A stretch of 64,000 nucleotides of DNA from Crossaster papposus (Eukaryota > Echinodermata > Asteroidea > Velatida > Solasteridae): assembly GCA_037893245.1 (NCBI GenBank), contig JBAIAA010000441.1:496001-560000 (forward strand). Reading direction: 5' to 3'. Positions 12,429 through 61,404 of the stretch are shown piece by piece; position 1 is the first letter of the stretch; each line of letters opens with the position of its first letter. The position numbers were made by a program, and so were the translations under genes. Under the pieces are notes generated by a model. It saw nothing but the letters and a program-made list of their open reading frames with translations, was not told the DNA's origin and made no database searches.

Positions 12429-12436
12429 CCAAAAAG

Positions 12437-13431: not shown

Positions 13432-13501
<70 letters not shown>

Positions 13502-14142: not shown

Positions 14143-14154
14143 ACAGGCAATTTC

Positions 14155-16745: not shown

Positions 16746-17014
16746 TGGATAGACTTGGGAATTAGTATTTTATAGCAAGTGTTGTTACTGATTTATTTAA
16801 AGTACATGTTTTGTGTTCAAAGATGCCGGAAAAGGAAAGAAAAAAAAGTACAAATGCTTTTGTTTACCAATTATTCTGTAAACAAACATTGGCCTATTTT
16901 TGAAGTCGATAATGTCTCATTCAAAAGTAAATGACTTAGTACATTGTATGGTAGGAAAATCGCAGTTTAAGAGTTTTGGGGGTAACTTACACGTGTGACA
17001 AGTTTAACTATTAA

Positions 17015-17393
17015 AGGTAGTATACACCATTGGTAATTTGTTGAATTATCAGGAATGGGTGGATTTGGGGGGTTGTATTTTATAGTAAATATCGTTTAAC
17101 TGACCTGTCCGAATTTTTACATTCATGGATGCCGAGAAAAGCACGAAAAACGGCGTTTGTTTTCCACCGGAGTCGAGCAGTTATTCTTATGTTATCTTTG
17201 TTTTTTCGCGCTCGCCGGACGGCGAGAATGAATTTTGGTTTATACAATTAAATTTTTTGGAACAATTACAGGATATCTAGGGCCCTTATTTTGCTGGATG
17301 CCTACAATCATTATTTACTTTTAAATAAGTAAGATATTTCTTAATAATTCAGTAGTAATTTTTTTCGATATCTGCAAATGGTGTTTTCTACCT
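17015..17393 (-). mobile_element. Family A MITE, full length, inverted
   Basis: 379 bp, ends AGGTAGTATACACCATTGG and GCAAATGGTGTTTTCTACCT, flanked by TTAA (17011-17014 and 17394-17397). It is nearly collinear with 8601-8979 in reverse, including GGGCCCTTATTTTGCTGGAT, a variant also present in that copy. The two may therefore be close siblings. Confidence 0.85.
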
Positions 17394-17397
17394 TTAA

Positions 17398-20295: not shown

Positions 20296-20544
20296 GGGGC
20301 CAATTTCATAAAACGGTGTAAGCACAAAAATTTGCTTAGCATGAAAATTCCTCCTTGGAAAAAACAGGGTTCCAAACCAACATTTCAGTTGATGTTTATT
20401 GTTTGTGACTGGTATTCAGCTGTTTTTTTGCTTTGAATGAAAAGCACCTTGTACGTGTTTTGGCCGATAACCTGTTTTTACTGAGCAAGACTTTTTTCGT
20501 GCTAAGCACATTTTTGTGCTTACAGGTTTTATGAAATTGGCCCC
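20296..20544. mobile_element. GGGGCCAATTTCAT-type MITE, copy 1
   Basis: Inverted ends GGGGCCAATTTCATAAAAC and GTTTTATGAAATTGGCCCC enclose about 249 bp, with subterminal GTAAGCACAAAAAT near the left end and its complement near the right. A shorter relative lies at 61405-61544. The flanking duplication is not clear, so the superfamily is open. Confidence 0.8.
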
Positions 20545-23370
20545 TTTATGTGACCAACAATCTTTTTAACTCACAGTGATTTCATAATAATTTAGGACAA
20601 GTTTTTGGATGTTTGTAAATGGTGTACTACATGTACATGTCTTGTTTTGAAGGAAGGGGGTGTTAAATTAGTGGGAGTTGTTAAATTAGTGGGTGGTGGG
20701 TTCTAGGTGGTGGGTCCTGGGTGGTAGTGGGTGGCCTAAAGACTCCAATTCTGATCCTGTGCCTGAGGGGCCTCTTCTATAAATCCATCTACTTACTGCT
20801 ACATAATTGCCTGGGTCAGGTTCACAGCTCTGTTTGTGTGATAGGGAAGGATGTGGGAGACACACCCAAGCGCAAGTTCAAGATGGTGAGAGACCAGGCG
20901 CACAGTGCTTCTGTGATTTGGGCGGTTCACAAGAGACTCTGAAAACTTGGTTCACATGTTCAATTTTGAGTCTTGAAATCTCCTAGCCCAGTCCTCTTTA
21001 ACAGACATCTTTAACCATACATTTTGTAAATCCCTACTCCCTTTTGCCAAGTACATGCAGAGGACCACATCCATCAAAATCCATCACTCATTCGGCTTCT
21101 TGCACACCAGTATGACACAACAAGTTTCCCAGCAAGTCTTAAAGACAACAAGTGTTTTAGTCACTCTGTGTGTTTTGATCAGCATAGGCACTGCGTCTGT
21201 CTGTCTGTCGCGGCCGCAGTCCCAAAGTGATGACAACAATATTTGTCAGATGACAAATGCAGGAAATTGTCACCTCAGATAAACCCCTAAACACAGCTAA
21301 ACAGGAAGAAATCAATTTACTAATTCTGCCTGAGCAATACATGGATGTGCCATGTGGGGACCCTGTCATGAATTCTTGTTGAATTGAAACTACATGTACC
21401 AGTACAATACATGTACCTAAAGCCATACTTGTGTACATGTGTGTTTTTCTCAAGATTTTGACCTTTTTGCACACAGAGAATCCTAAACTTAGCATTCCAG
21501 AGGCATGACTCATGCTGGGCGCATTTTGTTGACAACAAGATTGGTGCCCTTTCAAACTTCAAGCCATCAAAACTTGAAGGATTATTAATGACTTTGGGGA
21601 GTTATGGGCTCCTCCACATGGGGATTACCCTGAACATGTACATATGTTCATGTATACTGTACAACCACTGAACAATGGTTGGCTGCCACTAGATTTGACA
21701 CTTGTTGTAAATCTCTGACCGAGACATTTCCCATATGAATTGGGTATTAATACAATCACCACATCACCCACACTTGGGAACCAGACTTTTTTTTTTCTCA
21801 TCAAGTTAAGGGGTCTTGTCAATCCCCTTCAGTGAAAGCATTCCTCCATGGTTCCACGTCCACTCAAGTGAACTTTGCCAACATTCACCAACTACGCGAA
21901 GAGTTTTCCAACAACCAACAATTGCTAAAGTTGGTGAACGCTTGCATTGTTCACTCATGAGTGGAACGAATTGTACCCAGGGCTGCTTTTATGCAACATG
22001 TACATGTAGGCAGGAAGCCCCAACTGTTAAAAACAGTCACTCGATTGATTTTGACTGCTGGGATATTCATGTACATAACTATGTATTATGTATTACATAA
22101 TCTCTAGCGAACAAGAGATCTTTTCACTTCTCGGTCGTTTGTCTTTTGGCGTTAGAGTGTATGCTAAGTCTATGGGGATACATGTACTGTACCGGTAGGT
22201 CAATACTATATACAAAAACAAAGGGAAACACAATGGGGTTTCCTCGTTCGTTATGGTAAAACCTGACAGGATGGCTTTGTTGAATTTGTCAGTCAGGAAA
22301 TCTACACGATTTGCCATCACGCCGTGTACACGTAAACGTTCTGCAACAACTCGTCTACGTGCAAATTGGGAAGACCGGCGCCACCGCGGTAGCCACAACA
22401 CCGCCTTTCCCGTATCATAATTTGAGTCCGGGAACCAGACAAATCCCCCCTTAAATCCACAGCAAAGCCAGACAATGCTGTCTGACTACAAAGCCATGCA
22501 CTGCGTCACAGCAACAAAACAGACAAACCTGACGAAAAACGTATTCAATTTCGACCCAATTTTTTATTTTTTTTTAACAAACACCGGTTTTGGGGGGTTT
22601 ATTTCTTCCGAAGTTCAGGTTTCCAACACTCCAGGGGGGGTGGAGATGGGGAGGTTATAAGTTGTCTGGGAGATTACTAATAAATTGTTTGCTTCCTGTG
22701 TCTAATTAAGGGCCCCCTCAGGATGCAGAGATAAGATGCAGTAGAAACAACAGAGGGCTCCCTACAATAAATGGACAAGGAGACAATGAAGGGTGCACAC
22801 CGCTATTAAAATAGACTTCCCTAGACCCCAATGAAAAATCGAAAATCAACGAAAAAATAAACAACTTTCAAAGGTGTTTGAGACACACACACAATTTAAA
22901 CTTATTTGTTTAATTTTTACAGGGGCTTGCTAAGGACTTTCAGGAGAAATGTATTCTTGTGGCCCATCGCCATCTTGAAAATTTACATCTTGATCCGCCC
23001 CATTTCAAAATAACGGATGATGTCATCTTACGATTTTTCGTGATTTTTTTAAAATATTATATGTACATAGTATACATGTATATTTTAAGCAACGGAACAT
23101 GATAACATAAAAAATAGGTTTGTTAAATACATTGTAGGTGATAATTGCACAAAAAGTTTGCAAATGTGTGACTTTTTCGTTTTAATCAATTCGAAGTCAA
23201 TAACAAATTCTTTTTGAATGGTTTTAAATGGTTGTGACTGTATAATAGTTAAATAAAAAATAAAAAACGAAATATGAAGAACTGCGAATGCGAAAATCCC
23301 TACAAATGCTCTGGTTCCTACTTAACAGACATAGTTCTAGTTTTCTTAAATTTTCTGTTCAATTTGTTTT
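20545..23370. other. No gene I can defend; one weak exon candidate
   Basis: The frame ending at 20942 reads IGKDVGDTPKRKFKMVRDQ.. and stops after VHKRL. It could be a terminal exon, but I recognise no family. Another open stretch at 22093-22401 on - starts in GC-rich sequence. The rest, including CTGTCTGTCTGTCGCGGCC near 21197, shows no element structure. Confidence 0.3.
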
Positions 23371-23396
23371 GGTGGGGGGGGGGGGGGGGGGGGGGT
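23371..23396 (+). repeat. Poly-G tract
   Basis: A run of about 24 G residues. Length is uncertain in any assembly. Confidence 0.85.
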
Positions 23397-23483
23397 GTTA
23401 TCTAATGACATGACATTGTTTGCATACTGGTAGATCGGGTTTTTCCGAAGCCGGCTGGGCAAGCTACTTAAAGTACAGCCTTA

Positions 23484-24045
23484 AGCCGTGTTCACACTGG
23501 ACTTTTTTGGGGGAAGGTTTTACTGAGACAATGGTAAAATAAAAAATGGTCAAATGTTACTACTGTTCGCACTTAGACTTTTGACACGGGAAAATTTTAC
23601 CGAGACCGTGGGAGAAGGAGCCGAGCTGTCATTATAATGACTCGTTAGGGCGCTTTGCGTGACCTTTCTGCATTGACCCCGGTGTACCCATTTGCGCGCG
23701 CGCGCTTTTTCCAATTCCCGATGCATCAGCGTGCCCGCACGTAAACAATGCAAAGAGCGCATGCGCGGTGTTTGTGTGTAGCATGAAATCGCAGTAGGGG
23801 GGCCGGATAAACGTTTTCCCGAGACGCTTTTACCGACTCGCGCTGTTCGCACTGGACTTATCGTCTAGGGAAAAGTGACCTGGGACGTTTTCCCGGGCAG
23901 CAGTTGGCCGGTAGAAGTACCCACTGGACTCGGGAGAAGTACCTGAGAGGAAAACGTCCTAGGCTGTCCGCACTGGACTTAAAATGGGAAAAGTACCCAT
24001 CGTCTAGGTATGTTTTATCATAATAAGTCCAGTGCGAACATGGCT
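23484..24045. mobile_element. Harbinger-like MITE, copy 1
   Basis: 562 bp with inverted ends AGCCGTGTTCACACTGGACT and AAGTCCAGTGCGAACATGGCT, flanked by TTA and ATA. GTCCAGTG-type motifs recur inside, such as GTTCGCACTGGACTTATCG and GTCCGCACTGGACTTAAA. The inverted copy at 30567-31078 has a clean TAA duplication. Trinucleotide TWA targets suggest the PIF/Harbinger superfamily. Confidence 0.8.
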
Positions 24046-24590
24046 ATAGAAAGCCTTACCTCAAGGCTACCGGTATGTCTATGGGAATTCATCCACCACT
24101 GCAGAAGGCTATAAATTGGACGCACATTCTGGACAAATGAGGGCTCTGTTTACTTTCTCAACACTTCCTTGCAATGCTAAAACTAGCCAACAGATGGCGC
24201 AATGACACTTTCAAGCGTCCCAATATATCATGCCGGGCCAGTCTCATTCCTGCGATACCATACAGCTCATGTCCCTCCCCCCCTAACCTTTTCCTATCCC
24301 AGCAGGGAGGTTTTTGTATTCCGCTTCTGTCCACAACGATGCCCAACATGCAGATGTGCCCTGCGACATGTTTAACATTGTCAAGATAATTGAATGTGAA
24401 TGCTAGAGACTGAAGGAAAAGGTCAGGCTTACAATGTACTGTACATGTATGCAGGATACAGATGGCTGAACAAATATTATTACTTCCAATCTGCAATCAC
24501 TAGGAATGGGCATAAATAGCAGAATAAAATATCCCAAATTCATTATAAATACAAATTAAATTTGAAACTTCATCCAAAAATGAATTTCAA
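24046..24590. other. No gene seen
   Basis: Between two MITEs. Short frames on both strands at 24158-24496 overlap each other and match nothing I know. Confidence 0.35.
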
Positions 24591-24987
24591 AGGAATCGTA
24601 TAATGCGTTTGGTAATTGGGACCCACTGTTTGTTTCAATCCTACATGTATATAGAAAAGTACCATAAAACTAACTTATAACAATTTCATTTCAAAAGGTG
24701 GTAGCGATTTTGAGATATTGCCGAAAATCTGGAGCGGTTATGTCCATGCAGGAAGAATAATCTGCATTGAAATACACAATCTGAGAAACGTCACTGCAGT
24801 AACGCTTCTGACTTCTCAGATTCAAATTTTTGGGGATAACAAGTGATATCTTTTTTTCATAACCACAGTACTTCGAAGTGAAAAGTTTCTAAAAATGCAT
24901 TACACTATCCAAAGCCGCTGTACTTTTTACCAAGTAAGTTTTTATTGCCATTAATTTTTGGAGTAATTACCAAACGTATACGATCCT
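24591..24987 (-). mobile_element. Family C MITE, copy 1
   Basis: Inverse counterpart of 33322-33707. It shares the ends AGGRATCGTATA.. and ..CGTATACGATCCT, and internal AAGGTGGTAGCGATTTTGAGA, GAAGAATAATCTGCATT, ACTTCGAAGTG and ATTAATTTTTGGAGTAATTAC. The left TTAA has decayed (TCAA) and the right reads TTTTAA. Confidence 0.8.
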
Positions 24988-25046: not shown

Positions 25047-25393
25047 AGGTCCGGTAGGATACACCACTTGCAGACATCAAAAACTTTTTACTACCGAATT
25101 ATTAAAAAATATCTTACTTATTTGAAAGTGAAATAGTGAATAATAATTGTAGGCATCCAGCAAAATGATTGCGCGAGATATCCTGTAATTGTTCCAACAA
25201 ATTGAATAAAAAAAAAAAAACTAAAAAAAAACCAGCCCGACGCTGGTTGAAAACAATCGCTGTTTTTCTGGCCTTTCTTAACATCCATGACTGTAAAACT
25301 TTGGACAGGCCAGGTAAACGACTATAAAATACAACCCCCAAAATCAACCTATTCATGATAATTCATGCAATTACCAATGGTGTATTAAGGTCT
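25047..25393 (+). mobile_element. Family A MITE, complete but degraded
   Basis: Starts AGGTCCGGTAGGATACACC after TTAA (25043-25046) and ends ACCAATGGTGTATTAAGGTCT before TTAA (25394-25397). The GC hairpin has been replaced by an A-rich stretch at 25205-25233. Confidence 0.75.
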
Positions 25394-25854
25394 TTAAATG
25401 TCAGATTTTTTGAAACAGACTTCTTGAAACATACATCCACATGTACCTCAAATAAATGCTCGTTGTTTATACATTACAGCAATACTAGAACCCAAATATT
25501 GCTATTTCAGCTGTGTTTGGTGCTATAGATTGGTTTCATAGATTGGTTCCATACTCTATTTGTCCTGTGTTACTCAATAATGTCTGGCTAATATTGCAGT
25601 CTTACAAGAGTATCTGCCAAGCTGGATAAGATTCAGTGATTGACTGCGAGATGAAAAAGGGACCGACTGGGTTAAGTTCACTGGGAGGGCAGTGTAATTG
25701 GCAGGATCCACTTCAACCAAAATGGCTGCTAAGAATGTACCATAACAAGCAGGACTTCTGGTCTGACTCAATTGAGCACACTGGCATGACTTTAAAATTT
25801 AACCTCCGTTGTTTTTAGTCAATTCACCTTTCAGGAAGATAAAACTAGTCGCCC

Positions 25855-34025: not shown

Positions 34026-34398
34026 TAGGATGTACACCATTTGTCTATATCGAAAATATTTACTACCAAATTATTAAGAAATATCTTACTCATCTGAAAG
34101 AAAATAATGATTTTAGGCATCCAGCAAAATGATTGCGCTAGATATCCTGTAATTATTTTGAAAAATTATTTTTTATAAAGAAAAATTCGCGATCGCCGGA
34201 CGGCGAATGCGAACAAACACAAATAACATAAGAATAACTGCTCGACGCCGGTTGAAAACAATCGCTGTTTTTCGTGCTTTTCTCGGCATCCATGATTGTA
34301 GAACTTCAGACAGGTCAGTTAAACGATATTTACTATATATACAACCCCCCAAATCCACCCATTAATGATAATTCAAGCAATTACCAATGGTGTATCCA
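34026..34398 (+). mobile_element. Family A MITE
   Basis: Runs from GTAGGATGTACACCATTTG to ACCAATGGTGTATCC with all internal blocks (GATCGCCGGACGGCGAATGC hairpin, GCATCCATGATTGTAGAAC, ACGATATTTACTAT). Its right terminus meets the next copy directly. Confidence 0.8.
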
Positions 34399-34611
34399 AT
34401 GGTGTATCGTTTACCTGACCTGCCCGAACTTTTACATTCATTTTTCAAGGATTCGAAGAAAAGCAAGAAAAACGGCGTTCTTTTTTTAACTGGCGTCAGG
34501 CACTGATTCTTATGTTGTTCTGGTTTTGTTCGCGATCGCCGTCCGGCTGGATGTCTACAATCATTATTTACTTTCAAATAAGTAAGATATTTCCTAATAT
34601 TTTGGTAGTAA
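34399..34611 (-). mobile_element. Family A MITE, left half, broken by the giant palindrome
   Basis: Inverted family A: AATGGTGTATCG, TTTACCTGACCTGCCCGAAC, GCGATCGCCGTCCGG, TCATTATTTACTTTCAAATA, ending TTTTGGTAGTAA. The rest resumes at 48668 as TAAATGTTTTAAATATC, then CAAATGGTGTATCCTA. Joined at the TAA, the two halves give normal family A order, so this copy is the target of the 14-kb element. Confidence 0.85.
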
Positions 34612-34820
34612 CACTATGAAGCCCGACTACGTGAAAACCTTTTGTTGGAACAAAAAACGTGAAAAGTAAACAATAGACTTATCTTTCACGTATTAAAAAA
34701 CGTGATAAGTCCACTTTTCACGTATGTCAAAGTATCACGTATTTGTGGAGCTAGCCTCGTTGCTAGGGTTGATCTTTCACGTACAAAATACGTGAAAACT
34801 TTGCCGAGCGCGTGCCCATT
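34612..34820 (+). promoter_or_regulatory. Left subterminal ACGTGAAA repeats
   Basis: ACGTGAAA, TTTCACGT, ACGTGATA and TATCACGT variants occur about nine times in the first 200 bp, in both orientations: near 34629, 34669, 34685, 34698, 34715, 34733, 34767, 34776 and 34790. In plant CACTA elements short subterminal repeats bind the element's own protein. The same role here is inference. Confidence 0.55.
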
Positions 34821-36648
34821 GTTGGCGGATTAGCGGAGTGTCTTTTGTTGCAATAGGCGCTCTCGGACAATGATTCTGCGGTGGCCCACATATTTGTAAG
34901 GATTTGAGACCGTTACCAAACCATCCTGGGTAAGTGTTTGACCTAATTAACTTACAAAGGTTAGTTGTAAACGATCAATGAATAACAACATTCCTATCAC
35001 AAAACAGCGCGGTCTAGTCAAAACCCTTTCCTAAGTAGTCCGGCGGTCTAGTGAAAAAAATGCCAAGATAAGCATAAGCGCACACGTCTTCAGAGTAGGC
35101 CTAAGCTTATACCGAAAATTGCAATACCAGTTCCTAAAAGATTACAATGACCCCACCGAGTTTCTTGAAAAGACCAACATCAAAGCCTCAGCACCGCTCA
35201 CCACTTCCCCAGTGAAAAGATTGTTATCCAATCCTGACTAGGTCCAGTTACAAAAATCTTCATTGTCATTGGGTGTTTACTTTCTTCTTTCATTCAGCAC
35301 AGATGTTCTCTCAACACAAAGTGCTACTCAAAGAATGTTGTCCAGGCCCGCTTATCTCCAACAAAGATACATTGTATTTACCTACGCCAACCCTTGCCAG
35401 GCAGACACAGATTTTATTTAATAGGCCCTGATCGGTTTATTCCTGGAGTGAATTTATTTATCTCTAGTCCCAACCGATGGTCATTAAGTTGGCTGTAAGT
35501 AATTTTGAAAAAAAGTTTGCCGTACCTATTTACAAAATGTATTAAGATGAACAAAAAAAGGTTATATTCCTAAGGTTAATTATGTTATTGTCTTTGTTTT
35601 TAAAGAAGAAAAAAAGAGAAAGGATACTTAAAGACTTATTTGGGCTACCTCCATGTTTGAATGAACTTCTAAAATTTTCCCAACCGATTCCAGGGGTAAA
35701 TAATAATACGATTTTATTCTTGGTTTTTCTGATATCTAAGAAAATCGACATACAGGTACACCTGACAACTACAAGGCTAGCGAAATCAATTCAAGGTTTA
35801 TTTAATAACATTTATTTCTGGTTTCATTGTTTTTAAAAAAGGAAGAATACAAACAATAAACGGAACCTTAACACCTAATATTTTGAGCTCCTAAACATTT
35901 TTCCAACAAATTTAAGGGTAAAATTTAATACGATTTATTTTCCGTTTTTCTTGTCTTTAACAAAAACGATCTATTTCGTGGAAATTGTAAGAGCTCGTTA
36001 CATTTTTTAATTTATAATGGTTCCGTGATGTAATTTTACATAATAAACGCTTTATAGTGCAAGAGAAATAAAGTAAAACCACAGGAGAAATATTCGGGAG
36101 TATTTTCCGAATATATTCCAAGTAGGGGCAAGCAATCCAGACAATGATTGACAGCTGACCTACAACATGTACTACATTGTATCAGCCAGTAGGCAAACAT
36201 GTGGCCTACCATTACTTTGGAATTTCAATAGGCTGGGAAATGTCACTTTGTGGCATATAATTTACACCCAAATCCTGGTACTACTGCCGATAAACGGCAA
36301 TCCGTTATGGTTATACAAAACGGTGCTGTATGCTGTATGGTTGGCTTAGAAAACGTCATCATCGGAAAGAGTATGCTGCTTACTTCGGGTCCGTTCGCGT
36401 ACAAAATCGACAACGGGTTCCAATTTTTGCGATCGAAAACAGTTTTTCACGGTCCTAAAGCGATCCATAATCAACAAGAATCACCAAACGACAAGGTATG
36501 TATACAAAAGTAGACATTAAACAATCCTACCATACTGACAAAAAGTCCGTAAGGCCTACCATTTGTCGAAAAAATGTACTTTTAGCCTTAGGGGGGCATG
36601 TTGAGTTGGAATCCGAGACTTCGCTCGCGCGACCACTTTCCACGCCGT

Positions 36649-36699
36649 GTTGGGACGGCAGTGCCAGTGGTGTGCACACCGTACCACCGCCGTCCCAAC
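36649..36699. repeat. 51-bp inverted repeat inside the arm
   Basis: GTTGGGACGGC pairs with GCCGTCCCAAC, and the centre is GGTGTGCACACC. The mirror copy in the right arm is 46597-46647. It is the most GC-rich point of the arm and could form a hairpin or cruciform. Its function is unknown. Confidence 0.7.
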
Positions 36700-37627
36700 A
36701 TAGTACACGATGATCTCGTAATTCCCGTGAAACAAGCGACGATGCAGCGTTAGAAAACCTGCGTTTTAACGTCAATCTGTGCAAAATTGTGTCCCAATTT
36801 CGTAACTGATGTTGAATTTATTAACATTCAAAGACAATACGTGATATCAGATACACCAATTAAACATTTTTAGTTGTGAATTTAAAGCAAAACCGTTCCC
36901 ATTTTACGAAAGACAACTTAAGCGAGCGTGTTGCCATTTTGGGCGATAACATTTACCTAAACAGGGGTTGTACATTTTGTGACGCTTATCTGGCGCGTTT
37001 TGCGCTTAAATAATTCATTTTAACGTGGCAATAATCCAATTAATAAACGTTTAGGGTAATAATTTTCTTCTGGCATATTATGTTTTTTATAATCGTGATT
37101 ATTTCTTCTGCCTCCATTTTTACAAATATTTTATCATTATGGACATCCCTATGTGAGGAGTGGAACATGATTTTACTACATGTACTAAAGTCTTTTTTAA
37201 ATAATAAGTATATTGTTTGATAATTTCTGTTTTATTGATTTTGAATAAGTTGTTATTGGTTCTTTAGTATTTCCTTTTGTTGTTATACTCCAATCAGTAA
37301 ATCGCATTTCCTTGGCTCTACACCTTCTCTTTGTAACAAATTAAGGCAAATAATTTGTTCAATTATTTTTGCAGCTTTTCTGTGGTCCTTCTCTTGTGGC
37401 AGTGATGTTCCAGTATGGATACCACCACCAGTGAGCCTGAAGATGAAAAAGGCTAGGACTACCTTGATGATGCAAAACTGTCATGCCCGTTGAGCCTCAT
37501 GCCCGTAGTAAATCCATCTATTTTTCAACATTAATTGGGGACAAATAAGGTTCCCTTAACAATCAACATTTTTGCATAAATTATGCAAATTAGGGGATTT
37601 CAATATAAACTAATTATCTGTAGTTAA

Positions 37628-37861
37628 CCAGTTCGCGCCGGATGACGTATATAAACGCAAAAATTTCCCCAAATTCAAAACGGATGACGAATAAATACGC
37701 CAAGTTCAAGTTCGGAAATGTATGTCAGCAGCGCGCAAGGCCGGAAATGCGTGGGTGTGCTACCCAGCACTATCGGCCTGAACACGCTTCGGATCGAGTT
37801 TCGTTAAAAATAATCCCGCCCGTCGGCTCGGCGATGTTAAAATAATCCCGGCGCGAACTGG
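37628..37861. mobile_element. Family B MITE, copy 3, with empty site in the other arm
   Basis: 234 bp, ends CCAGTTCGCGCCGG and CCGGCGCGAACTGG, flanked by TTAA (37624-37627 and 37862-37865). The right arm at about 45670 keeps the uninterrupted site CTGTAGTTAAGCAGG in reverse. This gives a direct empty-versus-filled comparison proving a TTAA duplication with precise boundaries. Confidence 0.95.
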
Positions 37862-37902
37862 TTAAGCAGGTTTGATTATTACAATTTCTTGCATCATTTA
37901 AT

Positions 37903-38070
37903 AAAGTTAATGCATATGATGTCACACGCGCTACGCGTACGCGCTAATCGCACGTACAACCGGGCGGAGCGGTGAGGTCAAACACACTTTGTTTGACCTC
38001 ACCGCTCGGCATGGTTGTACGTGCGATTAGCGCGTACGCGTAGCGCGCGTGACGTCAATGCAACCCCTTT
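37903..38070. mobile_element. 168-bp hairpin MITE in left arm only
   Basis: A long near-perfect hairpin: CGCTACGCGTACGCGCTAAT.. and its complement surround GTGAGGTCAAACA/TGTTTGACCTCAC. The outer ends are AAAGTTAATGCAT and ATGCAACCCCTTT. The right arm has the empty site CATTTAATTAAAG, so the duplication is AT, 2 bp. AT duplications are reported for ISL2EU-type Harbinger relatives, but the assignment is tentative. Confidence 0.8.
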
Positions 38071-38289
38071 ATTAAAGTAGTTGTCAAGATAAACTGGGGA
38101 AAAATGAGAAAAAAAAGCCGGGGGTTTGGAAAAGGCCCACATCCCTGCTGCGATCAAAGACGTTTTTCAAATCATTAAAATCGTCACTTAGTTTGGTTAA
38201 GTTTTCACGCAACAAGGTACTTAAATAAAGTGAATATTTCACTTGTATCTGTACGTACGAGCTTTACGTGCAATAGTTATGGTATTGTC

Positions 38290-38950
38290 CCCGACAACCA
38301 ACTGGCAATTCTTAACAAATTTGGGAATTTTATTGTGTAAAAAAAGGACGGAACTTTACCCTCCAAAATCCTCCAATATTAAACATTGCATTATTTGGAG
38401 GATTTAGAAAAATATACGGTAGACATGCAACCCAGCATTTATATGTCGATATGTAAAATATTCCCATAATTAATTTAGCGTTCTGGAATTGAGATTCAGT
38501 GTCGCAATTATTTCCGGTCTCCCAAAATTTAGTGGTCTTTTTGTGTTGAATTGGATAAATACTGTATTTTTGTATTCGAGAGGCGTATACAGGTAGATTC
38601 AATTTAACAAATTTGCGAATTTGATTGCGTAAAAAAGGACGAAATTTACCAAAATTTTCAGAGCACGAAAATATTCATCGTGCGATATCATACGCCAACT
38701 TTTGTAACAATTGGCGCGTTGTAACAGATTTCATGGGTACTTTACCATGTTTTTAGTCCAAAAAATGATAAATACACTGAAAATAATGTATAATTCCTCA
38801 ATTAATTTGGGTAAACATAATCCCTTTAGTCTGAAAGTTGTTGTACTGACATGAATCTACAATCTGCTCACTCAGTCCAAATTTTGTGTCGATTGCTCAT
38901 TCACAACTGATATTAGGGTGGATTTTGACAACTTCCATGCAAAAGGTTTC
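38290..38950. repeat. Edge units of the left-arm array (X1 and partial Y0)
   Basis: X1 (about 38290-38605) shares its first ~60 bp with the 370-bp units, then switches to a different body (CCTCCAAAATCCTCCAATAT .. GTATACAGGTAGATTCAATT). Y0 (about 38606-38950) is a 370-bp unit lacking its first part. A second X unit ends the array at about 41172-41480, so X units bracket it in direct orientation. Confidence 0.75.
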
Positions 38951-41171
38951 CCCCGACAACCAACTGGCAATTCTTAACAAATTTGGGAATTTGATTGTGT
39001 AAAAAGGGACGGAATTTACCGACATTTTCAGAGCACAAAAATATTCATCGTGCGATATCATACGCCAACTTTTGTAACAATTGGCGCGTTGTAACAGATT
39101 TCATGGGTACTTTACCATGTTTTTAGTCAAAAAAATGATAAATACACTGAAAATAATGTATAATTCCTCAATTAATTTGGGTAAACATAATCCCTTTTGT
39201 CTGAAAGTTGTTGTACTGACATGAATCTACAATCTGCTCACTCAGTCCAAATTTTGTGTCCATTGCTCATTCACAACTGATATTAGGGCGGATTTTGACA
39301 ACTTCCATGCAAAAGGTTTCCCCCGACAACCAACTGGCAATTCTTAACAAATTTGGAAATTTGATTGTGTAAAAAGGGACGGAATTTACCGAAATTTTCA
39401 GAGCACGAAAATATTCATCGTGCGATATCATACGCCAACTTTTGTAACAATTGGCGGGTTGTAACAGATTTCATGGGTACTTTACCATGTTTTTAGTCCA
39501 AAAAATGATAAATACACTGAAAATAATGTATAATTCCTCAATTAATTTGGGTAAACATAATCCCTTTTGTCTGAAAGTTGTTGTACTGACATGAATCTAC
39601 AATCTGCTCACTCAGTCCAAATTTTGTGTCCATTGCTCATTCACAACTGATATTAGGGCGGATTTTGACAACTTCCATGCAAAAGGTTTCCCCCGACAAC
39701 CAACTGGCAATTCTTAACAAATTTGGAAATTTGATTGTGTAAAAAGGGACGGAATTTACCGAAATTTTCAGAGCACGAAAATATTCATCGTGCGATATCA
39801 TACGCCAACTTTTGTAACAATTGGCGCGTTGTAACAGATTTCATGGGTACTTTACCATGTTTTTAGTCAAAAAAATGATAAATACACTGAAAATAATGTA
39901 TAATTCCTCAATTAATTTGGGTAAACATAATCCCTTTAGTCTGAAAGTTGTTGTACTGACATGAATCTACAATCTGCTCACTCAGTCCAAATTTTGTGTC
40001 GATTGCTCATTCACAACTGATATTAGGGTGGATTTTGACAACTTCCATGCAAAAGGTTTCCCCCGACAACCAACTGGCAATTCTTAACAAATTTGGGAAT
40101 TTGATTGTGTAAAAAGGGACGGAATTTACCGACATTTTCAGAGCACAAAAATATTCATCGTGCGATATCATACGCCAACTTTTGTAACAATTGGCGCGTT
40201 GTAACAGATTTCATGGGTACTTTACCATGTTTTTAGTCAAAAAAATGATAAATACACTGAAAATAATGTATAATTCCTCAATTAATTTGGGTAAACATAA
40301 TCCCTTTTGTCTGAAAGTTGTTGTACTGACATGAATCTACAATCTGCTCACTCAGTCCAAATTTTGTGTCCATTGCTCATTCACAACTGATATTAGGGCG
40401 GATTTTGACAACTTCCATGCAAAAGGTTTCCCCCGACAACCAACTGGCAATTCTTAACAAATTTGGGAATTTGATTGTGTAAAAAGGGACGGAATTTACC
40501 GAAATTTTCAGAGCACGAAAATATTCATCGTGCGATATCATACGCCAACTTTTGTAACAATTGGCGGGTTGTAACAGATTTCATGGGTACTTTACCATGT
40601 TTTTAGTCCAAAAAATGATAAATACACTGAAAATAATGTATAATTCCTCAATTAATTTGGGTAAACATAATCCCTTTTGTCTGAAAGTTGTTGTACTGAC
40701 ATGAATCTACAATCTGCTCACTCAGTCCAAATTTTGTGTCCATTGCTCATTCACAACTGATATTAGGGCGGATTTTGACAACTTCCATGCAAAAGGTTTC
40801 CCCCGACAACCAACTGGCAATTCTTAACAAATTTGGAAATTTGATTGTGTAAAAAGGGACGGAATTTACCGAAATTTTCAGAGCACGAAAATATTCATCG
40901 TGCGATATCATACGCCAACTTTTGTAACAATTGGCGCGTTGTAACAGATTTCATGGGTACTTTACCATGTTTTTAGTCCAAAAAATGATAAATACACTGA
41001 AAATAATGTATAATTCCTCAATTAATTTGGGTAAACATAATCCCTTTTGTCTGAAAGTTGTTGTACTGACATGAATCTACAATCTGCTCACTCAGTCCAA
41101 ATTTTGTGTCGATTGCTCATTCACAACTGATATTAGGGTGGATTTTGACAACTTCCATGCAAAAGGTTTTC
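38951..41171 (+). repeat. Six 370-bp units forming a 3-unit higher-order repeat
   Basis: CCCCGACAACCAACTGGCAA begins units at 38951, 39321, 39691, 40061, 40431 and 40801, and again at 41172. Period is exactly 370 bp. Diagnostic variants (GACATTTTC with CACAAAA, or GAAATTTTC with CACGAAA; GGCGCG or GGCGGG; GTCCATTG or GTCGATTG; GGGCGG or GGGTGG) follow order A-B-C-A-B-C. The array is thus a 1,110-bp block present twice. No frame spans the units. Confidence 0.9.
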
Positions 41172-41524
41172 CCCCGACAACCAACTGGCAATTCTTAACA
41201 AATTTGGGAATTTGATTGTGTAAAAAAGGACGGAATTTACCCTCCAAAATCCTCCAATATCAATCATTGCATTATTTGGAGGATTTAGGAAAATATAGAC
41301 ATGCAACCCAGCATTTATATGTCGATATGTAAAATATTCCCATAATTAATTTAGCGTTCTGGAATTGAGATTTAGTGTCGCAATTATTTCCAGTCTCCCA
41401 AAATTTAGTGGTCTTTATGTGTTGAATTAGATCTGTGTCAACTCGAGAAAAAAAAGAGGCACTGCTAATTAAATTCATTTTTACTGAAAATCTGGGCTAA
41501 TGCTAATAAGTACTTGGCCAGCAT

Positions 41525-41562
<38 letters not shown>
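41525..41562 (+). repeat. (CAAG)n microsatellite
   Basis: About nine CAAG/AAGC units. The mirror site in the right arm (about 42579-42600) has only about five, so it differs in length between arms. Confidence 0.9.
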
Positions 41563-41931
41563 TTTTGTTATTCAAATTTATGGGTAATAATCTTTCTATG
41601 TGCCAGGTATCCTGTGCAGTGTTCCCCTTCAAACTGTCCACCTTAACTCATGTACCAAGATGAGTGAGAGTGGAAGCTTTTGTTATTCAAATTTAAGGGT
41701 AATAAACCATCTTCTATATATGCCAGGTACATGTATCCTGTGCAATGTACACTATATGGTAAACTGTACATCCTCACTCTTGTAGATTATCTAGTAGATT
41801 ATATAGTTTTACTCTTAAATGTACATTTTGTACTTATATACCTCAAATACAAATTAAAAGCAGTAAAACAGTGATTTTCACAGCATTTCATTTAAGGCCT
41901 GCCAAACAATAATCGACGGCAATTTTTTATT

Positions 41932-42021
41932 TTATGCATAGACATACCATGGACATACCTACATGTATGGGTATAGACATACGCATACATGTAGGTATGT
42001 CCATGGTATGTCTATGCATAA
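41932..42021. repeat. 38-bp perfect hairpin in the palindrome spacer
   Basis: TTATGCATAGACATACCATG.. at 41932-41969 is the exact reverse complement of 41984-42021, with a 14-nt loop. It sits just inside the left arm boundary. It contains the palindromes ATGCAT, CCATGG and ACATGT. Confidence 0.9.
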
Positions 42022-42212
42022 AGTAAAAAATGCAAGTTAAACAAAACTATTTATGTGAAAACAAATGGTAAAACTGATGCCAAAAATTAATGTATACATT
42101 TTGAGTCTGCAGATACACACGGAAGTGTACGCTTAACACTTAAATGTAGGTGGTTCTTGATTCAACCCGGACAAACTTTTTTACAAAACCTATGAAAATC
42201 AATAGTTCCAGA

Positions 42213-45200
42213 GAAAAATTGTTGTCGATTATTGTTTGGCAGGCCTTAACTAAATGAAATGCTGTGAAAATCACTGTTTCACTGCTTTTAATTTGTATTT
42301 GAGGTATATAAGTACAAAATGTACATTTAAGAGTAAAACTATATAATCTAGATAATCTGCAAGAGTGAGGATGTACAGTTTACCATATAGTGTACATTGC
42401 ACAGGATACATGTACCTGGCACATATAGAAGATGGTTTATTACCCTTAAATTTGAATAACAAAAGCTTCCACTCTCACTCATCTTGGTACATGAGTTAAG
42501 GTGGACAGTTTGAAGGGGAACACTGCACAGGATACCTGGCACATAGAAGGATTATTACCCATAAATTTGAATAACAAAAGCTTGCTTGCTTGCTTGCTTG
42601 TATGCTGGCCAAGTACTTATTGCCCACCAAAATGGTCTGGGGTACAAGGCCCCTGTTATTATATGTTGCAAAAGTGGAACAAATGCTTGTGAATTCATGT
42701 AAAATGCTTGGACAAGGATATTTCACTGCAAATGATTAGGCCAAACTTTCAATTTTAATTTTCTTCAAAAATGATAATTGTTTTTATGGCGCAATTAAAA
42801 AAAGAAAACTATTTTGACACCTTCAAATATAATTTCCAAGGTTAAATTGAATCTACCTGTATACGCCTCTCGAATACAAAAATACAGTATTTATCGAAAG
42901 GGATCTTTAAAAAAAAATTATACATCGTTTATTAGCATTAGCCCAGATTTTCAGTAAAAATGAATTTAATTAGCAGTGCCTCTTTATTTTCTCAAGTTGA
43001 CACAGATTCAATTCAACACAAAAAGACCACTAAATTTTGGGAGACCGGAAATAATTGCGACACTGAATCTCAATTCCAGAACGCTAAATTAATTATGGGA
43101 ATATTTTACATATCGACATATAAATGCTGGGTTGCATGTCTATATTTTCCTAAATCCTCCAAATAATGCAATGATTGATATTGGAGGATTTTGGAGGGTA
43201 AATTCCGTCCTTTTTTACTCAATCAAATTCCCAAATTTGTTAAGAATTGCCAGTTGGTTGTCGGGGGAAAACCTTTTGCATGGAAGTTGTCAAAATCCGC
43301 CCTAATATCAGTTGTGAATGAGCAATCGACACAAAATTTGGACTGAGTGAGCAGATTGTAGATTCATGTCAGTACAACAACTTTTAGACAAAAGGGATCA
43401 TGTTTACCCAAATTAATTGAGGAATTATACATTATTTTCAGTGTATTTATCATTTTTTGGACTAAAAACATGGTAAAGTACCCATGAAATCTGTTACAAC
43501 GCGCCAATTGTTACAAAAGTTGGCGTATGATATCGCACGATGAATATTTTCGTGCTCTGAAAATTTCGGTAAATTCCGTCCCTTTTTACACAATCAAATT
43601 TCCAAATTTGTTAAGAATTGCCAGTTGGTTCAATGTCGGGGGAAACCTTTTGCATGGAAGTTGTCAAAATCCGCCCTAATATCAGTTGTGAATGAGCAAT
43701 CGACACAAAATTTGGACTGAGTGAGCAGATTGTAGATTCATGTCAGTACAACAACTTTCAGACAAAAGGGATTATGTTTACCCAAATTAATTGAGGAATT
43801 ATACATTATTTTCAGTGTATTTATCATTTTTCTGACTAAAAACATGGTAAAGTACCCATGAAATCTGTTACAACGCGCCAATTGTTACAAAAGTTGGCGT
43901 ATGATATCGCACGATGAATATTTTCGTGCTCTGAAAATTTTGGTAAATTCTGTCCCTTTTTACACAATCAAATTCCCAAATTTGTTAAGAATTGCCAGTT
44001 GGTTGTCGGGGGAAACCTTTTGCATGGAAGTTGTCAAAATCCGCCCTAATATCAGTTGTGAATGAGCAATCGACACAAAATTTGGACTGAGTGAGCAGAT
44101 TGTAGATTCATGTCAGTACAACAACTTTCAGACAAAAGGGATTATGTTTACCCAAATTAATTGAGGAATTATACATTATTTTCAGTGTATTTATCATTTT
44201 TCTGACTAAAAACATGGTAAAGTACCCATGAAATCTGTTACAACGCGCCAATTGTTACAAAAGTTGGCGTATGATATCGCACGATGAATATTTTCGTGCT
44301 CTGAAAATTTCGGTAAATTCCGTCCCTTTTTACACAATCAAATTCCCAAATTTGTTAAGAATTGCCAGTTGGTTGTCGGGGGAAACCTTTTGCATGGAAG
44401 TTGTCAAAATCCGCCCTAATATCAGTTGTGAATGAGCAATGGACACAAAATTTGGACTGAGTGAGCAGATTGTAGATTCATGTCAGTACAACAACTTTCA
44501 GACAAAAGGGATTATGTTTACCCAAATTAATTGAGGAATTATACATTATTTTCAGTGTATTTATCATTTTTTTGACTAAAAACATGGTAAAGTACCCATG
44601 AAATCTGTTACAACGCGCCAATTGTTACAAAAGTTGGCGTATGATATCGCACGATGAATATTTTCGTGCTCTGAAAATTTCGGTAAATTCCGTATCTTTT
44701 TACACAATCAAATTCCCAAATTTGTTAAGAATTGCCAGTTGGTTGTCGGGGGAAACCTTTTGCATGGAAGTTGTCAAAATCCGCCCTAATATCAGTTGTG
44801 AATGAGCAATGGACACAAAATTTGGACTGAGTGAGCAGATTGTAGATTCATGTCAGTACAACAACTTTCAGACAAAAGGGATTATGTTTACCCAAATTAA
44901 TTGAGGAATTATACATTATTTTCAGTGTATTTATCATTTTTTGGACTAAAAACATGGTAAAGTACCCATGAAATCTGTTACAACGCGCCAATTGTTACAA
45001 AAGTTGGCGTATGATATCGCACGATGAATATTTTCGTGCTCTGAAAATTTTGGTAAATTTCGTCCTTTTTTACGCAATCAAATTCGCAAATTTGTTAAAT
45101 TGAATCTACCTGTATACGCCTCTCGAATACAAAAATACAGTATTTATCCAATTCAACACAAAAAGACCACTAAATTTTGGGAGACCGGAAATAATTGCGA

Positions 45201-48200
45201 CACTGAATCTCAATTCCAGAACGCTAAATTAATTATGGGAATATTTTACATATCGACATATAAATGCTGGGTTGCATGTCTACCGTATATTTTTCTAAAT
45301 CCTCCAAATAATGCAATGTTTAATATTGGAGGATTTTGGAGGGTAAAGTTCCGTCCTTTTTTACACAATAAAATTCCCAAATTTGTTAAGAAATGCCAGT
45401 TGGTTGTCGGGGACAATACCATAACTATTGCACGTAAAGCTCGTACGTACAGATACAAGTGAAATATTCACTTTATTTAAGTACCTTGTTGCGTGAAAAT
45501 TTAACCAAACTAAGTGACGATTTTAATGATTTGAAAAACGTCTTTGATCGCAGCAGGGATGTGGGCCTTTTCCAAACCCCCGGCTTTTTTTTCTCATTTT
45601 TCCCCAGTTTATCTTGACAAATACTTTAATTAAATGATGCAAGAAATTGTAATAATCAAACCTGCTTAACTACAGATAATTAGTTTATATTGAAATCCCC
45701 TAATTTGCATAATTTATGCAAAAATGTTGATTGTTAAGGGAACCTTATTTGTCCCCAATTAATGTTGAAAAATAGATGGATGTACTACGGGCATGAGGCT
45801 CAACTATGGATGACAGTTTTGCATCATCAAGGTAGTCCTAGCCTTTTTCATCTTCAGGCTCACTGGTGGTGGTATCCATACTGGAACATCACTGCCACAA
45901 GAGGAGGACCACAGTAAAGCTGCAAAAATAATTGAACAAATTATTTGCCTTAATTTGTTACAAAGAGAAGGTGTAGAGCCAAGAAAATGCGATTTACTGA
46001 TTGGAGTATAACAACAAAAGGAAATACTAAAGAACCAATAACAACTTATTCAAAATCAATAAAACAGAAATTATCAAACAAAATATACTTATTATTTAAA
46101 AAAGACTTTAGTACATGTAGTAAAATCATGTTCCACTCCTCACATAGGGATGTCCATAATGATAAAATATTTGTAAAAATGGAGGCAGAAGAAATAATCA
46201 CGATTATAAAAAAAAAAATATGCCAGAAGAAAATTATTACCCTAAACGTTTATTAATTGGATTATTGCCACGTTAAAATGAATTATTTAAGCGCAAAACG
46301 CGCCAGATAAGCGTCACAAAATTTACAACCCCTGTTTAGGTAAATGTTATCGCCCAAAATGGCAACACGCTCGCTTAAGTTGTCTTTCGTAAAATGGGAA
46401 CGGTTTTGCTTTAAATTCACAACTAAAAATGTTTAATTGGTGTATCTGATATCACGTATTGTCTTTGAATGTTAATAAATTCAACATCAGTTACGAAATT
46501 GGGACACAATTTTGCACAGATTGACGTTAAAACGCAGGTTTTCTAACGCTGCATCGTCGCTTGTTTCACGGGAATTACGAGATCATCGTGTACTATGTTG
46601 GGACGGCGGTGGTACGGTGTGCACACCACTGGCACTGCCGTCCCAACACGGCGTGGAAAGTGGTCGCGCGAGCGAAGTCTCGGATTCCAACTCAACATGC
46701 CCCCCTAAGGCTAAAAGTACATTTTTTCGACAAATGGTAGGCCTTACGGACTTTTTGTCAGTATGGTAGGATTGTTTAATGTCTACTTTTGTATACATAC
46801 CTTGTCGTTTGGTGATTCTTGTTGATTATGGATCGCTTTAGGACCGTGAAAAACTGTTTTCGATCGCAAAAATTGGAACCCGTTGTCGATTTTGTACGCG
46901 AACGGACCCGAAGTAAGCAGCATACTCTTTCCGATGATGACGTTTTCTAAGCCAACCATACAGCATACAGCACCGTTTTGTATAACCATAACGGATTGCC
47001 GTTTATCGGCAGTAGTACCAGGATTTGGGTGTAAATTATATGCCACAAAGTGACATTTCCCAGCCTATTGAAATTCCAAAGTAATGGTAGGCCACATGTT
47101 TGCCTACTGGCTGATACAATGTAGTACATGTTGTAGGTCAGCTGTCAATCATTGTCTGGATTTCTTGCCCCTACTTGGAATATATTCGGAAAATACTCCC
47201 GAATATTTCTCCTGTGGTTTTACTTTATTTCTCTTGCACTATAAAGCGTTTATTATGTAAAATTACATCACGGAACCATTATAAATTAAAAAATGTAACG
47301 AGCTCTTACAATTTCCACGAAATAGATCGTTTTTGTTAAAGACAAGAAAAACGGAAAATAAATCGTATTAAATTTTACCCTTAAATTTGTTGGAAAAATG
47401 TTTAGGAGCTCAAAATATTAGGTGTTAAGGTTCCGTTTATTTTTTGTATTCTTCCTTTTTTAAAAACAATGAAACCAGAAATAAATGTTATTAAATAAAC
47501 CTTGAATTGATTTCGCTAGCCTTGTAGTTGTCAGGTGTACCTGTATGTCGATTTTCTTAGATATCAGAAAAACCAAGAATAAAATCGTATTATTATTTAC
47601 CCCTGGAATCGGTTGGGAAAATTTTAGAAGTTCATTCAAATAAGTCTTTAAGTATCCTTTCTCTTTTTTTCTTCTTTAAAAACAAAGACAATAACATAAT
47701 TAACCTTAGGAATATAACCTTTTTTTGTTCATCTTAATACATTTTGTAAATAGGTACGGCAAACTTTTTTTCAAAATTACTTACAGCCAACTTAATGACC
47801 ATCGGTTGGGACTAGAGATAAATAAATTCACTCCAGGAATAAACCGATCAGGGCCTATTAAATAAAATCTGTGTCTGCCTGGCAAGGGTTGGCGTAGGTA
47901 AATACAATGTATCTTTGTTGGAGATAAGCGGGCCTGGACAACATTCTTTGAGTAGCACTTTGTGTTGAGAGAACATCTGTGCTGAATGAAAGAAGAAAGT
48001 AAACACCCAATGACAATGAAGATTTTTGTAACTGGACCTAGTCAGGATTGGATAACAATCTTTTCACTGGGGAAGTGGTGAGCGGTGCTGAGGCTTTGAT
48101 GTTGGTCTTTTCAAGAAACTCGGTGGGGTCATTGTAATCTTTTAGGAACTGGTATTGCAATTTTCGGTATAAGCTTAGGCCTACTCTGAAGACGTGTGCG

Positions 48201-48667
48201 CTTATGCTTATCTTGGCATTTTTTTCACTAGACCGCCGGACTACTTAGGAAAGGGTTTTGACTAGACCGCGCTGTTTTGTGATAGGAATGTTGTTATTCA
48301 TTGATCGTTTACAACTAACCTTTGTAAGTTAATTAGGTCAAACACTTACCCAGGATGGTTTGGTAACGGTCTCAAATCCTTACAAATATGTGGGCCACCG
48401 CAGAATCATTGTCCGAGAGCGCCTATTGCAACAAAAGACACTCCGCTAATCCGCCAACAATGGGCACGCGCTCGGCAAAGTTTTCACGTATTTTGTACGT
48501 GAAAGATCAACCCTAGCAACGAGGCTAGCTCCACAAATACGTGATACTTTGACATACGTGAAAAGTGGACTTATCACGTTTTTTAATACGTGAAAGATAA
48601 GTCTATTGTTTACTTTTCACGTTTTTTGTTCCAACAAAAGGTTTTCACGTAGTCGGGCTTCATAGTG
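42213..48667 (-). repeat. Right arm of the giant palindrome
   Basis: 6,455 bp, the reverse complement of the left arm. It carries both MITE-free target sites, a 307-bp segment at 42622-42928 bounded by TTATT, and a shorter 370-bp array. Its outer end (48480-48667) repeats the subterminal TTTCACGT/ACGTGAAA cluster and the CACTATGAAG terminus. Confidence 0.85.
43251..45095 (-). repeat. Right-arm 370-bp array, four units plus a partial
   Basis: CAGTTGGTT landmarks at 43251, 43622, 43996, 44366 and 44736 give spacings of 371, 374, 370 and 370. The 374 interval includes an extra CAAT at about 43631. There are two fewer full units than on the left, and I see no A-B-C order here. Confidence 0.85.
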
Positions 48668-48715
48668 TAAATGTTTTAAATATCATATCTGCAGACTGCA
48701 AATGGTGTATCCTAG
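48668..48715 (-). mobile_element. Family A MITE, remaining half of the palindrome's target
   Basis: TAAATGTTTTAAATATCATA then TGCAAATGGTGTATCCTA completes the copy interrupted at 34611. Confidence 0.8.
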
Positions 48716-60554: not shown

Positions 60555-60730
60555 ATCATACATCTCGATCACCATGCGGCGAGCGTGATTTTTCTTAACA
60601 AATATAGTATATCTAGCGCAATCAGTTTGCAGGATACCTTCAATCATTATTTCCTTTCCAATAAGTAAGATATTTATTAATAATTCGGTAGTAAACATTT
60701 TCGATATCTGCAAATGGTGTATCCTATCTT
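60555..60730 (-). mobile_element. Family A MITE fragment, inverted
   Basis: TCGATCACCATGCGGCGAGC, then AGTTTGCAGGATACC, TCATTATTTCCTTTCC, TAAGTAAGATATTTATTAAT and GATATCTGCAAATGGTGTAT. Absent from the homologous place in unit 1. Confidence 0.7.
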
Positions 60731-61404
60731 CAACTTCAAATTGGTTTGCACTCCATGAATGGTGCACTAATGGCTGTAATTCAAATTGTAACTCTGCAAA
60801 CTTTAAATTGAAAAAAACACAAAACCAGCACTGACAGAGCGAAAACTTCACCAGGTTAGTTGTCAAACATCTTTCTTTAGATTTTGAGCACTTTTGCATC
60901 GACAAGTATACTGAAACCTTTTAACCCCAACCATCCTAAATCCTCTTTGCAAAATGCAGGATTCAGATTACATGGAGTTTTTGCAGGATTCAGGTTATGT
61001 GCCAGAAAAACCGGGTAGGTAGTTAGATATAAACTTAGCATTATATAAAGTGGCGTGCTGCTATTACTAGTATTAGAAAATAAAACACTTTTTTCATAAT
61101 ATAATTTAACTGAAAAATAACAAATTACAATTGTTCTTTTTATACACACAGATTTTTATTTGTACTCTGGTAATACATTTTGTACAGTGAAAACATGTAT
61201 CATACATGTATTGCAAACGAATTGCTGCTATTAGTGAAGAGTTTGTGCTGTTTTTCTAAACAAATAAGTTGCCAAAAACATTCGGAGTAAACTTCTATTT
61301 TGTAGAAATTAAAAACACATCAAAGCATACAGCCTGTGTGAACATCATGTGACGTCAACTTTAAACAAATTACATACATGTTTTTCCTCTGCATTGCATG
61401 TGAA

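Follow-up and report, generated by a model that had tools for sequence, protein, structure and literature searches.

The window, as we call the whole 64-kb stretch of DNA analysed here, harbours at positions 34612–48667 an element of 14,056 bp, which is built of a 7.3-kb arm, a 286-bp spacer and a 6.5-kb arm. From its self-match and from end matches in the genome it is very probably a non-autonomous foldback element of the CACTA/EnSpm type. Self-comparison of the window revealed arm-to-arm identities of mostly 98.5–98.9% over kilobases, in line with the near-perfect 14-kb palindrome described in the initial annotation. The outermost match joins 34611–37631 to 48668–45662 in inverted orientation (98.9% over 3,024 bp) and comprises the flanking domains of the left arm (34612–37631, plus strand) and the right arm (45662–48667, minus strand). 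A second inverted match pairs 38068–40500 with 45633–43197 (98.5%), and a third links the inner domains at 41505–41927 (plus strand) and 42621–42214 (minus strand; 93.2%). Both arms contain a tandem array of approximately 370-bp units, with seven units in the left arm (38604–41194, plus strand) versus five in the right arm (43244–45098, minus strand). In addition, a left-arm stretch of 436 bp (37632–38067), to which a dispersed repeat (37624–37874) and a self-inverted repeat of about 180 bp (37897–38076) contribute, is opposed by just 28 bp of the right arm (45634–45661). Long matching arms do make up most of the element, but, as a correction to the initial annotation, they are not symmetrical (7,316 bp on the left versus 6,454 bp on the right). 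The spacer (41928–42213, plus strand), whose left part lies inside a self-palindrome of 110 bp (41922–42031), agrees in length with the approximately 285 bp noted initially. The element therefore shows the structure of foldback elements, in which very long inverted repeats account for most of the length, tandem repeats lie inside them and the middle domain is small.

The longest stop-free frame within the element extends over 144 aa, in line with the lack of a transposase noted initially. Three open reading frames of the family (144, 100 and 127 aa) and one flanking frame (155 aa) yielded no Pfam match above the cut-off. The element begins with CACTATGAAG at 34612 and terminates with CTTCATAGTG at 48667; further copies of the terminal 10-mer CACTATGAAG are absent from the rest of the 64-kb window. 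The motif ACGTGA is present eight times in each 200-bp end, against a shuffle mean of 0.08, and twice in the 13.6 kb between the ends. In the left terminal region (34612–34811, plus strand) four of the eight motifs lie in each orientation; the right terminal region (48468–48667, minus strand) holds eight as well. These motifs resemble the subterminal repeats of CACTA elements. Directly outside the two ends a TAA is found (34609–34611 and 48668–48670), the right one being the second copy of the target site duplication.

Insertion sites and further copies in the genome

Alignment of the joined flanks identified the target as a dispersed repeat, of which the left half occupies 34546–34611 and the right half starts at 48668. 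Across the junction the joined flanks align to 8701–8604, 5528–5450, 28600–28503 and 17293–17372 of the window, and the first three of these alignments were inspected base by base. Uninterrupted, that is empty, copies of the target repeat are therefore present within the same 64 kb.

A genome search with the 28-bp end, allowing up to two mismatches, gave 119 matches (61 forward, 58 reverse), while the reversed sequence used as control gave none, which excludes chance. Family members share CACTA…TAGTG termini. Exact 3-bp duplications surround 23 of the 26 elements whose flanks were read; the exceptions are C165, which has also lost the last two bases on one side, C520 and C790a. Two of the elements (C162 and C217) may represent one insertion that was duplicated. 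Because 11 different triplets were seen, the TAA flanks noted initially hold for both sides of the window copy but not for the family, in which the duplications are 3 bp long without a fixed sequence.

Eleven copies were read completely, the window copy included. Ten of them have arms of 2–5 kb running in from the ends and the remaining one has arms of 968 bp; the arms carry differences specific to each copy. The spacer is present at 98–100% identity in 9 of 11 elements. One arm of C471 is interrupted once, at 355 bp, and four larger copies (C1229a, C48, C599 and C429; 17–28 kb) may contain nested insertions. The pair C790a and C790b shows one difference in 7,700 bases, and their flanks differ.

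Long near-perfect palindromes are a known problem in genome assembly, and such a structure could result if the assembler duplicated a stretch in inverted orientation or used a chimeric foldback read. Nevertheless an assembly inversion is very unlikely in view of the 119 end matches, the 23 duplications among 26 elements and the empty copies of the target repeat, and it is hardly expected to produce 10 of 11 fully read copies with multi-kilobase arms and copy-specific differences. The same architecture recurs at many loci, each with its own array sizes. A segmental inverted duplication that never moved has nothing in its favour beyond the shape of the locus, and we give it practically no credence, as it leaves the target duplications, the empty sites and the many dispersed copies unaccounted for. 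Duplications, empty sites and the replicated structure led us to reject both explanations and support the earlier proposal that the element moved as a unit.

Normally built relatives and transposase parts

Two relatives without the palindromic architecture point to a source of transposase. C479 is 24,944 bp long, is flanked by a TTA duplication and has no giant palindrome. One of its ends matches the palindrome at 95% over 226 bp and the other at 97% over 183 bp, and no shared sequence was detectable between the two beyond about 226 bp. ACGTGA occurs eight and seven times in its ends and ten times in the 24.5 kb between them. Between both matching ends C479 encodes a DUF4218 domain (E 4.8e-10); the Transposase_21 exon is absent from it. 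The left end of C343 is the same as that of the palindrome (98% over 260 bp). From there C343 runs collinear with C479, on either side of a gap of about 28 kb, up to DUF4218 and Transposase_21 exons; its right end was not found in the sequence read on both sides of this interruption. The DUF4218 matches of C343, C251 and C479, in which introns are read through, contain one or two stops each. The search for a full-length relative with an EnSpm-type transposase was thus successful in part: the domains are there (DUF4218 in C479 and C343, Transposase_21 in C343), but no intact autonomous copy, with a complete transposase gene between two ends, was found in the sequence read.

The transposase parts of the relatives match EnSpm families, and together with the CACTA…TAGTG ends, the 3-bp duplications and the subterminal repeats they substantiate the original CACTA assignment. 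Mobilisation by another superfamily (e.g. Chapaev, Harbinger or a Mutator-type foldback), with a resemblance to CACTA at the ends only, is improbable. CA…TG termini and duplications of 2–5 bp are indeed shared by the wider CMCT group (PMC12730594); against such mobilisation stand 3-bp duplications of free sequence, the full CACTA…TAGTG termini with subterminal repeats, and the EnSpm domains in relatives with matching ends.

Other candidates were rejected. Open reading frames with PF02992 (844–846 aa; C103, C191 and C616) were considered as partner transposase. Two of the three copies were examined with their flanks (L039 and L040), and the stretch they share has no CACTA start or end; at L039 no CACTA lies at the borders of this stretch, and the palindrome is matched only once, over 22 bp. 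The alpha-kinase and integrase-like genes of C479 are not cargo of the family, since they sit in a nested element with inverted repeats of about 340 bp (86%). Copies of the end of this nested element exist at C124, C773, C119, C117 and C648. Where it inserted, about 7 bp of the C479 end are duplicated.

Variation between the arms

The two arms of one element are closely alike, with a divergence of 0.07–0.22% in 7 of 12 elements, and random pairing of arms from these 12 reached an equally low mean in 2 of 10,000 trials. Of 75 private alleles, 11 are present in both arms of their element and 64 in one arm only; in an earlier set of 10 elements, 10 such parallel hits were seen where about 0.03 were expected. 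Private variants shared by both arms point to gene conversion between the arms of one element, as judged from the sequence pattern. The pattern is patchy: the arms of C547 and C322 are alike at columns 2449/2451 and unlike at 2748/2759. Against conversion stand the 64 alleles confined to one arm and the arm tree, in which the two arms of an element group together in only 3 of 10 cases (C531, C547 and C790b). Part of the homogenisation could also be mimicked by reads that were assigned to the wrong arm in the assembly.

Both the low divergence and the shared private alleles would also result if the palindrome were rebuilt from one arm at every transposition (hairpin or copy-back), so that both arms always descend from the same one. 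We regard this as unlikely, because two arm types persist: of the 11 scorable elements, 4 have unlike arms at columns 2449/2451 and 8 at columns 2748/2759. Among the latter eight, the types keep the same side of the spacer in all six with known spacer orientation. Flipping of the spacer between copies was rejected as well. In C1229b spacer and arm types are both reversed, and therefore the whole element was inserted in the opposite orientation; in C531 the spacer is reversed, and its arms are alike at the diagnostic sites and hence uninformative on flipping.

Taken together, we are confident that the elements form a young non-autonomous foldback CACTA/EnSpm family, which is presumably moved in trans and inherits its palindrome as a unit, with arms probably patched by conversion. 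The ends and subterminal ACGTGA repeats are the putative sites at which an EnSpm transposase binds and cuts; larger relatives of normal build at other loci (C343/C479/C251 type) presumably supply it. Judging from ends, duplications and transposase parts, this enzyme would excise the element and reinsert it with 3-bp duplications. The palindrome is passed on as a whole: in the scorable elements its two arm types, which differ slightly, keep their sides of the spacer. Afterwards short gene-conversion tracts would patch the arms against each other, and the tandem arrays probably expand and contract. The palindrome itself probably originated through a template switch from one inverted end to the other while the gap left by an excision was being repaired.

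Relation to known elements

With CACTA/EnSpm elements (En-1/Spm, soybean Tgmt*) the family has in common the CACTA…TAGTG ends, the 3-bp duplications, repeats in both orientations near the ends and a multi-exon transposase, here found in relatives with matching ends (PMC4158355, PMC2613891). Tgmt* has inverted repeats of 13 bp, whereas the palindrome is nearly all inverted repeat and holds no transposase. Tetris of Drosophila is likewise non-coding and shares the flanking domain, a tandem array of variable size, the inner domain and the middle domain; its arms do not exceed 1,735 bp (PMC4079207), whereas several-kilobase arms and the EnSpm superfamily distinguish the family described here. Copy 112 of Galileo from Drosophila (9,021 bp, arms of 4.2–4.7 kb) lacks a transposase as well. 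Galileo belongs to the P superfamily and makes duplications of 7 or 8 bp in D. willistoni, in contrast to EnSpm and 3 bp here, and strongly extended arms are described in only three copies of that species (PMC4168063). Tm1 Mutator/Foldback elements of root-knot nematodes also combine composite, variable inverted repeats with MITE-like and transposase-bearing members, but they have 9-bp duplications and a Mutator (Phantom-like) transposase (PMC3169594). A foldback element of sea urchin is cited in PMC4079207. The domain plan agrees with known foldback elements, and arms reaching 7 kb together with the EnSpm superfamily set the family apart. The mitochondrial code points to an echinoderm as the host of the family. 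The TU elements of sea urchin are foldback elements of an echinoderm too, with long arms but 8-bp duplications. Among the literature matches listed, no CACTA/EnSpm foldback element was named in titles or abstract openings, which is weak evidence of absence given that most subscription journals lie outside the coverage.

Near-perfect palindromes of such size are expected to be unstable. Despite this, a giant palindrome appears to have been multiplied to many copies by transposition, and EnSpm/CACTA would join the superfamilies known to have produced foldback elements. More tentatively, giant palindromy may be a self-maintaining form of a CACTA element and no passive relic, its arms kept alike by ongoing conversion within the element or by copy-back at excision gaps, so that the family would spread through an echinoderm genome as intact palindromes of 10–15 kb. 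The many independent palindromes, of known relationship and each with its own variants, also lend themselves to testing gene conversion between arms in natural replicates.

Structure of the palindrome and its insertion site

The element at 34612-48667 of the window (C441:496001-560000) is a non-autonomous foldback CACTA/EnSpm transposon of 14,056 bp, abutted on the outside by TAA at both ends, in a genome of 1.02 Gb (1,841 contigs). Self-comparison bore out the near-perfect palindrome described in the initial annotation: a left arm of 7,316 bp and a right arm of 6,454 bp enclose a spacer of 286 bp, and the arms match at 98.9% in the outer 3.0 kb, at 98.5% across 2.4 kb that take in most of a tandem array, and at 93.2% in the innermost 0.4 kb. 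The array of ~370-bp units comprises seven units on the left and five on the right (each match ≥200 bp was counted as a unit), and only 28 bp of the right arm lie opposite a left-arm stretch of 436 bp (37632-38067). The longest stop-free frame spans 144 aa, and its Pfam search gave no match above the cut-off. Elsewhere in the window, complex tandem repeats (12826-14565) show ~76-91% identity among copies.

The insertion site is the interior of a dispersed repeat, which has many copies in the window (including 5439-5550, 8327-8983, 17011-17397, 25053-25411, 34033-34611 and 60588-60735) and is also arrayed inside the non-palindromic relative C479. As an empty-site test, the flanks of the palindrome were joined with a single TAA and aligned to the window. 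Uninterrupted repeat copies span this junction at 8701-8604 (81%, 110 bp), 5528-5450 (90%, 79 bp), 28600-28503 and 17293-17372. The first three alignments were inspected base by base; the copies at 8701-8604 and 5528-5450 both have GTAGTAAAT at the junction. Flanks were examined for 26 elements (11, 3, 10 and 2 in successive sets), and an exact 3-bp duplication, with 11 distinct triplets overall, is present at 23 of them. It is missing at C165, which has an altered right end, C520 and C790a. Together, the duplications and the uninterrupted target-repeat copies support the earlier proposal that the palindrome moved as a unit.

The two elements on contig C790 (137850-153239 and 337197-352586; 15,390 bp each) lie 199 kb apart in opposite orientation with unlike flanks, and differ at one of the 7,700 bases compared. 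The first of them, C790a, is flanked by TAA on the left and TTA on the right, and because the duplication is missing, recombination is possible at this locus. C1090a and C1090b, each 15,743 bp long, have different duplications (ATA and TGA).

A family of foldback elements and its transposase-bearing relatives

A genome-wide search with the 28-bp terminal sequence of the window element yielded 119 matches with at most two mismatches (61 forward, 58 reverse), and the reversed control yielded none genome-wide at this threshold. At least 26 convergent end pairs, 2.2-28.3 kb apart, were found among the 100 of 119 matches listed. Further copies with the same ends, as looked for since the initial annotation, thus exist; a fixed TAA duplication did not hold for them, given the variety of triplets.

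Eleven elements, including the window copy, were read end to end, and in ten of these the arms measure at least 2 kb. The C471 arm is interrupted once, at 355 bp, and the C137 arm stops at 2,077 bp; the exception is C131, with arms of 968 bp and a mostly different interior. Most sequence is common to all ten large elements, the window copy included, and each of their arms carries between 0 and 13 array units (13 + 1 in C531, 4 + 9 in C226, 0 + 6 in C119). The spacer was found in nine of the eleven elements at 98-100% identity and is absent from C119 and C131. In two small relatives, C162 and C217, the imperfect inverted repeats cover only ~250 bp; since their flanks look alike, they may represent one insertion, later duplicated.

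The motif ACGTGA occurs eight times in the first and eight times in the last 200 bp of the window element; the intervening 13.6 kb contain two occurrences (mean for shuffled ends 0.08). Ends and subterminal motif are common to the palindrome and its transposase-bearing relatives. C479 (24,944 bp, TTA duplication) carries eight and seven motifs in its ends and lacks the giant palindrome structure; its match to the palindrome is confined to the ends (226 bp, 95%; 183 bp, 97%). It encodes DUF4218 (E 4.8e-10, exceeding the curated cut-off), and its positions 11645-12663 are 97.7-98.5% identical to the C343 and C251 loci, where the top two Transposase_21 matches of the genome lie. The left ends of C343 and C479 are 98% identical over 260 bp. 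C343 is collinear with C479 up to position 1101, minus 483-957, is then interrupted by ~28 kb, and resumes at position 1098 with 90-99% identity on through the DUF4218 exon. The interrupting ~28 kb (C343:3202688-3230864), with a 4-bp overlap at the junction, probably represents an insertion into the CACTA element at this locus. One or two stops lie in each of the DUF4218 matches (C343, C251, C479), as obtained by a search in which introns are translated along with the exons. From the shared ends and the C479/C343 collinearity through the DUF4218 exon, the palindrome ends are thus linked to an EnSpm transposase gene. The anticipated relative with such a transposase was found in part: C479 has matching ends and DUF4218, and no intact autonomous copy was found among the relatives examined.

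The alpha-kinase and integrase-like genes of C479 (C479:1297238-1322181) were rejected as CACTA cargo; they belong to a transposon nested within it at element positions ~17400-24766. This transposon, with inverted repeats of ~340 bp and a duplication of ~7 bp, codes for the alpha-kinase (PF02816, E 5.4e-31) and the integrase-like protein (rva_4, E 0.015, under the cut-off), and its end is also present at C124, C773, C119, C117 and C648. A second EnSpm-like transposase (C103, C191, C616; L034, L035, L036, L039, L040) has an uninterrupted ORF of 844-846 aa in three near-identical copies. No CACTA was found at the borders of the shared stretch in the two copies read together with their flanks; at these borders L039 has unusual inverted repeats (146, 56 and 44 bp). 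As to the host, a cox1 segment of 660 bases on contig C1841 (16.3 kb) has an open frame under genetic codes 4, 5, 9 and 13; translation with table 9, the code of echinoderms and flatworms (AAA Asn, AGA Ser, ATA Ile), yields residues conserved in animal cox1 and suggests an echinoderm, perhaps a sea cucumber. Contig C8, more than 5.2 Mb long, harbors a cox1-like gene (C8:5208663-5210009, L073) whose open frame spans 682 aa, together with more cox1 pieces; as a guess, it may be the chromosome of a bacterial symbiont or a contaminant within the assembly.

Evolution of the arms and comparison with known elements

For 12 elements, both arms entered an alignment of their outermost 2.8 kb (24 arms, 2,769 columns), which excluded C131 and had the C137 right arm trimmed to 2,074 bases. 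The two arms of an element diverge by 0.07-0.80% (mean 0.315%), and the mean divergence between arms from different elements is 0.402%; random arm pairing reached an equally low mean in 2 of 10,000 trials. Eleven of the 75 element-private alleles are present in both arms and 64 in a single arm. In an earlier ten-element set, ten such both-arm coincidences were observed versus ~0.03 expected from parallel mutation. Conversion probably accounts for these both-arm alleles; the main alternative is that assembly polishing produced them. An element's own two arms cluster in the tree for just three elements of the ten-element set (C531, C547, C790b).

Two arm types exist in the family. One type on each arm is seen in 4 of 11 scorable elements at columns 2449/2451 and in 8 of 11 at columns 2748/2759. 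Six of these eight have a known spacer orientation, and in all six the arm types keep their side; therefore, the palindrome, unlike arms included, is passed on as one piece. In C547 and C322 the arms are alike at 2449/2451 and unlike at 2748/2759, 300 columns apart, a pattern that short conversion tracts fit better than wholesale arm rebuilding.

An enzyme of the C343 type acting in trans probably performs cut-and-paste transposition of the palindrome, which itself probably originated by template switching in gap repair. In the literature, foldback evolution via transposase loss and inverted-repeat elongation has been proposed, and Tetris exemplifies foldback elements composed of flanking, tandem, inner and middle domains (PMC4079207); one Galileo copy has arms of 4.2-4.7 kb (PMC4168063); CACTA ends, 3-bp duplications and subterminal repeats are known in CACTA elements (PMC4158355, PMC2613891); and EnSpm families of a red alga are enlarged to 16-20 kb (PMC6431247). 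Our literature search, covering titles and abstract openings among the matches listed, found no CACTA foldback element. What appears new is the combination of CACTA and foldback structure, the size of the arms and the recurrence over many young copies.
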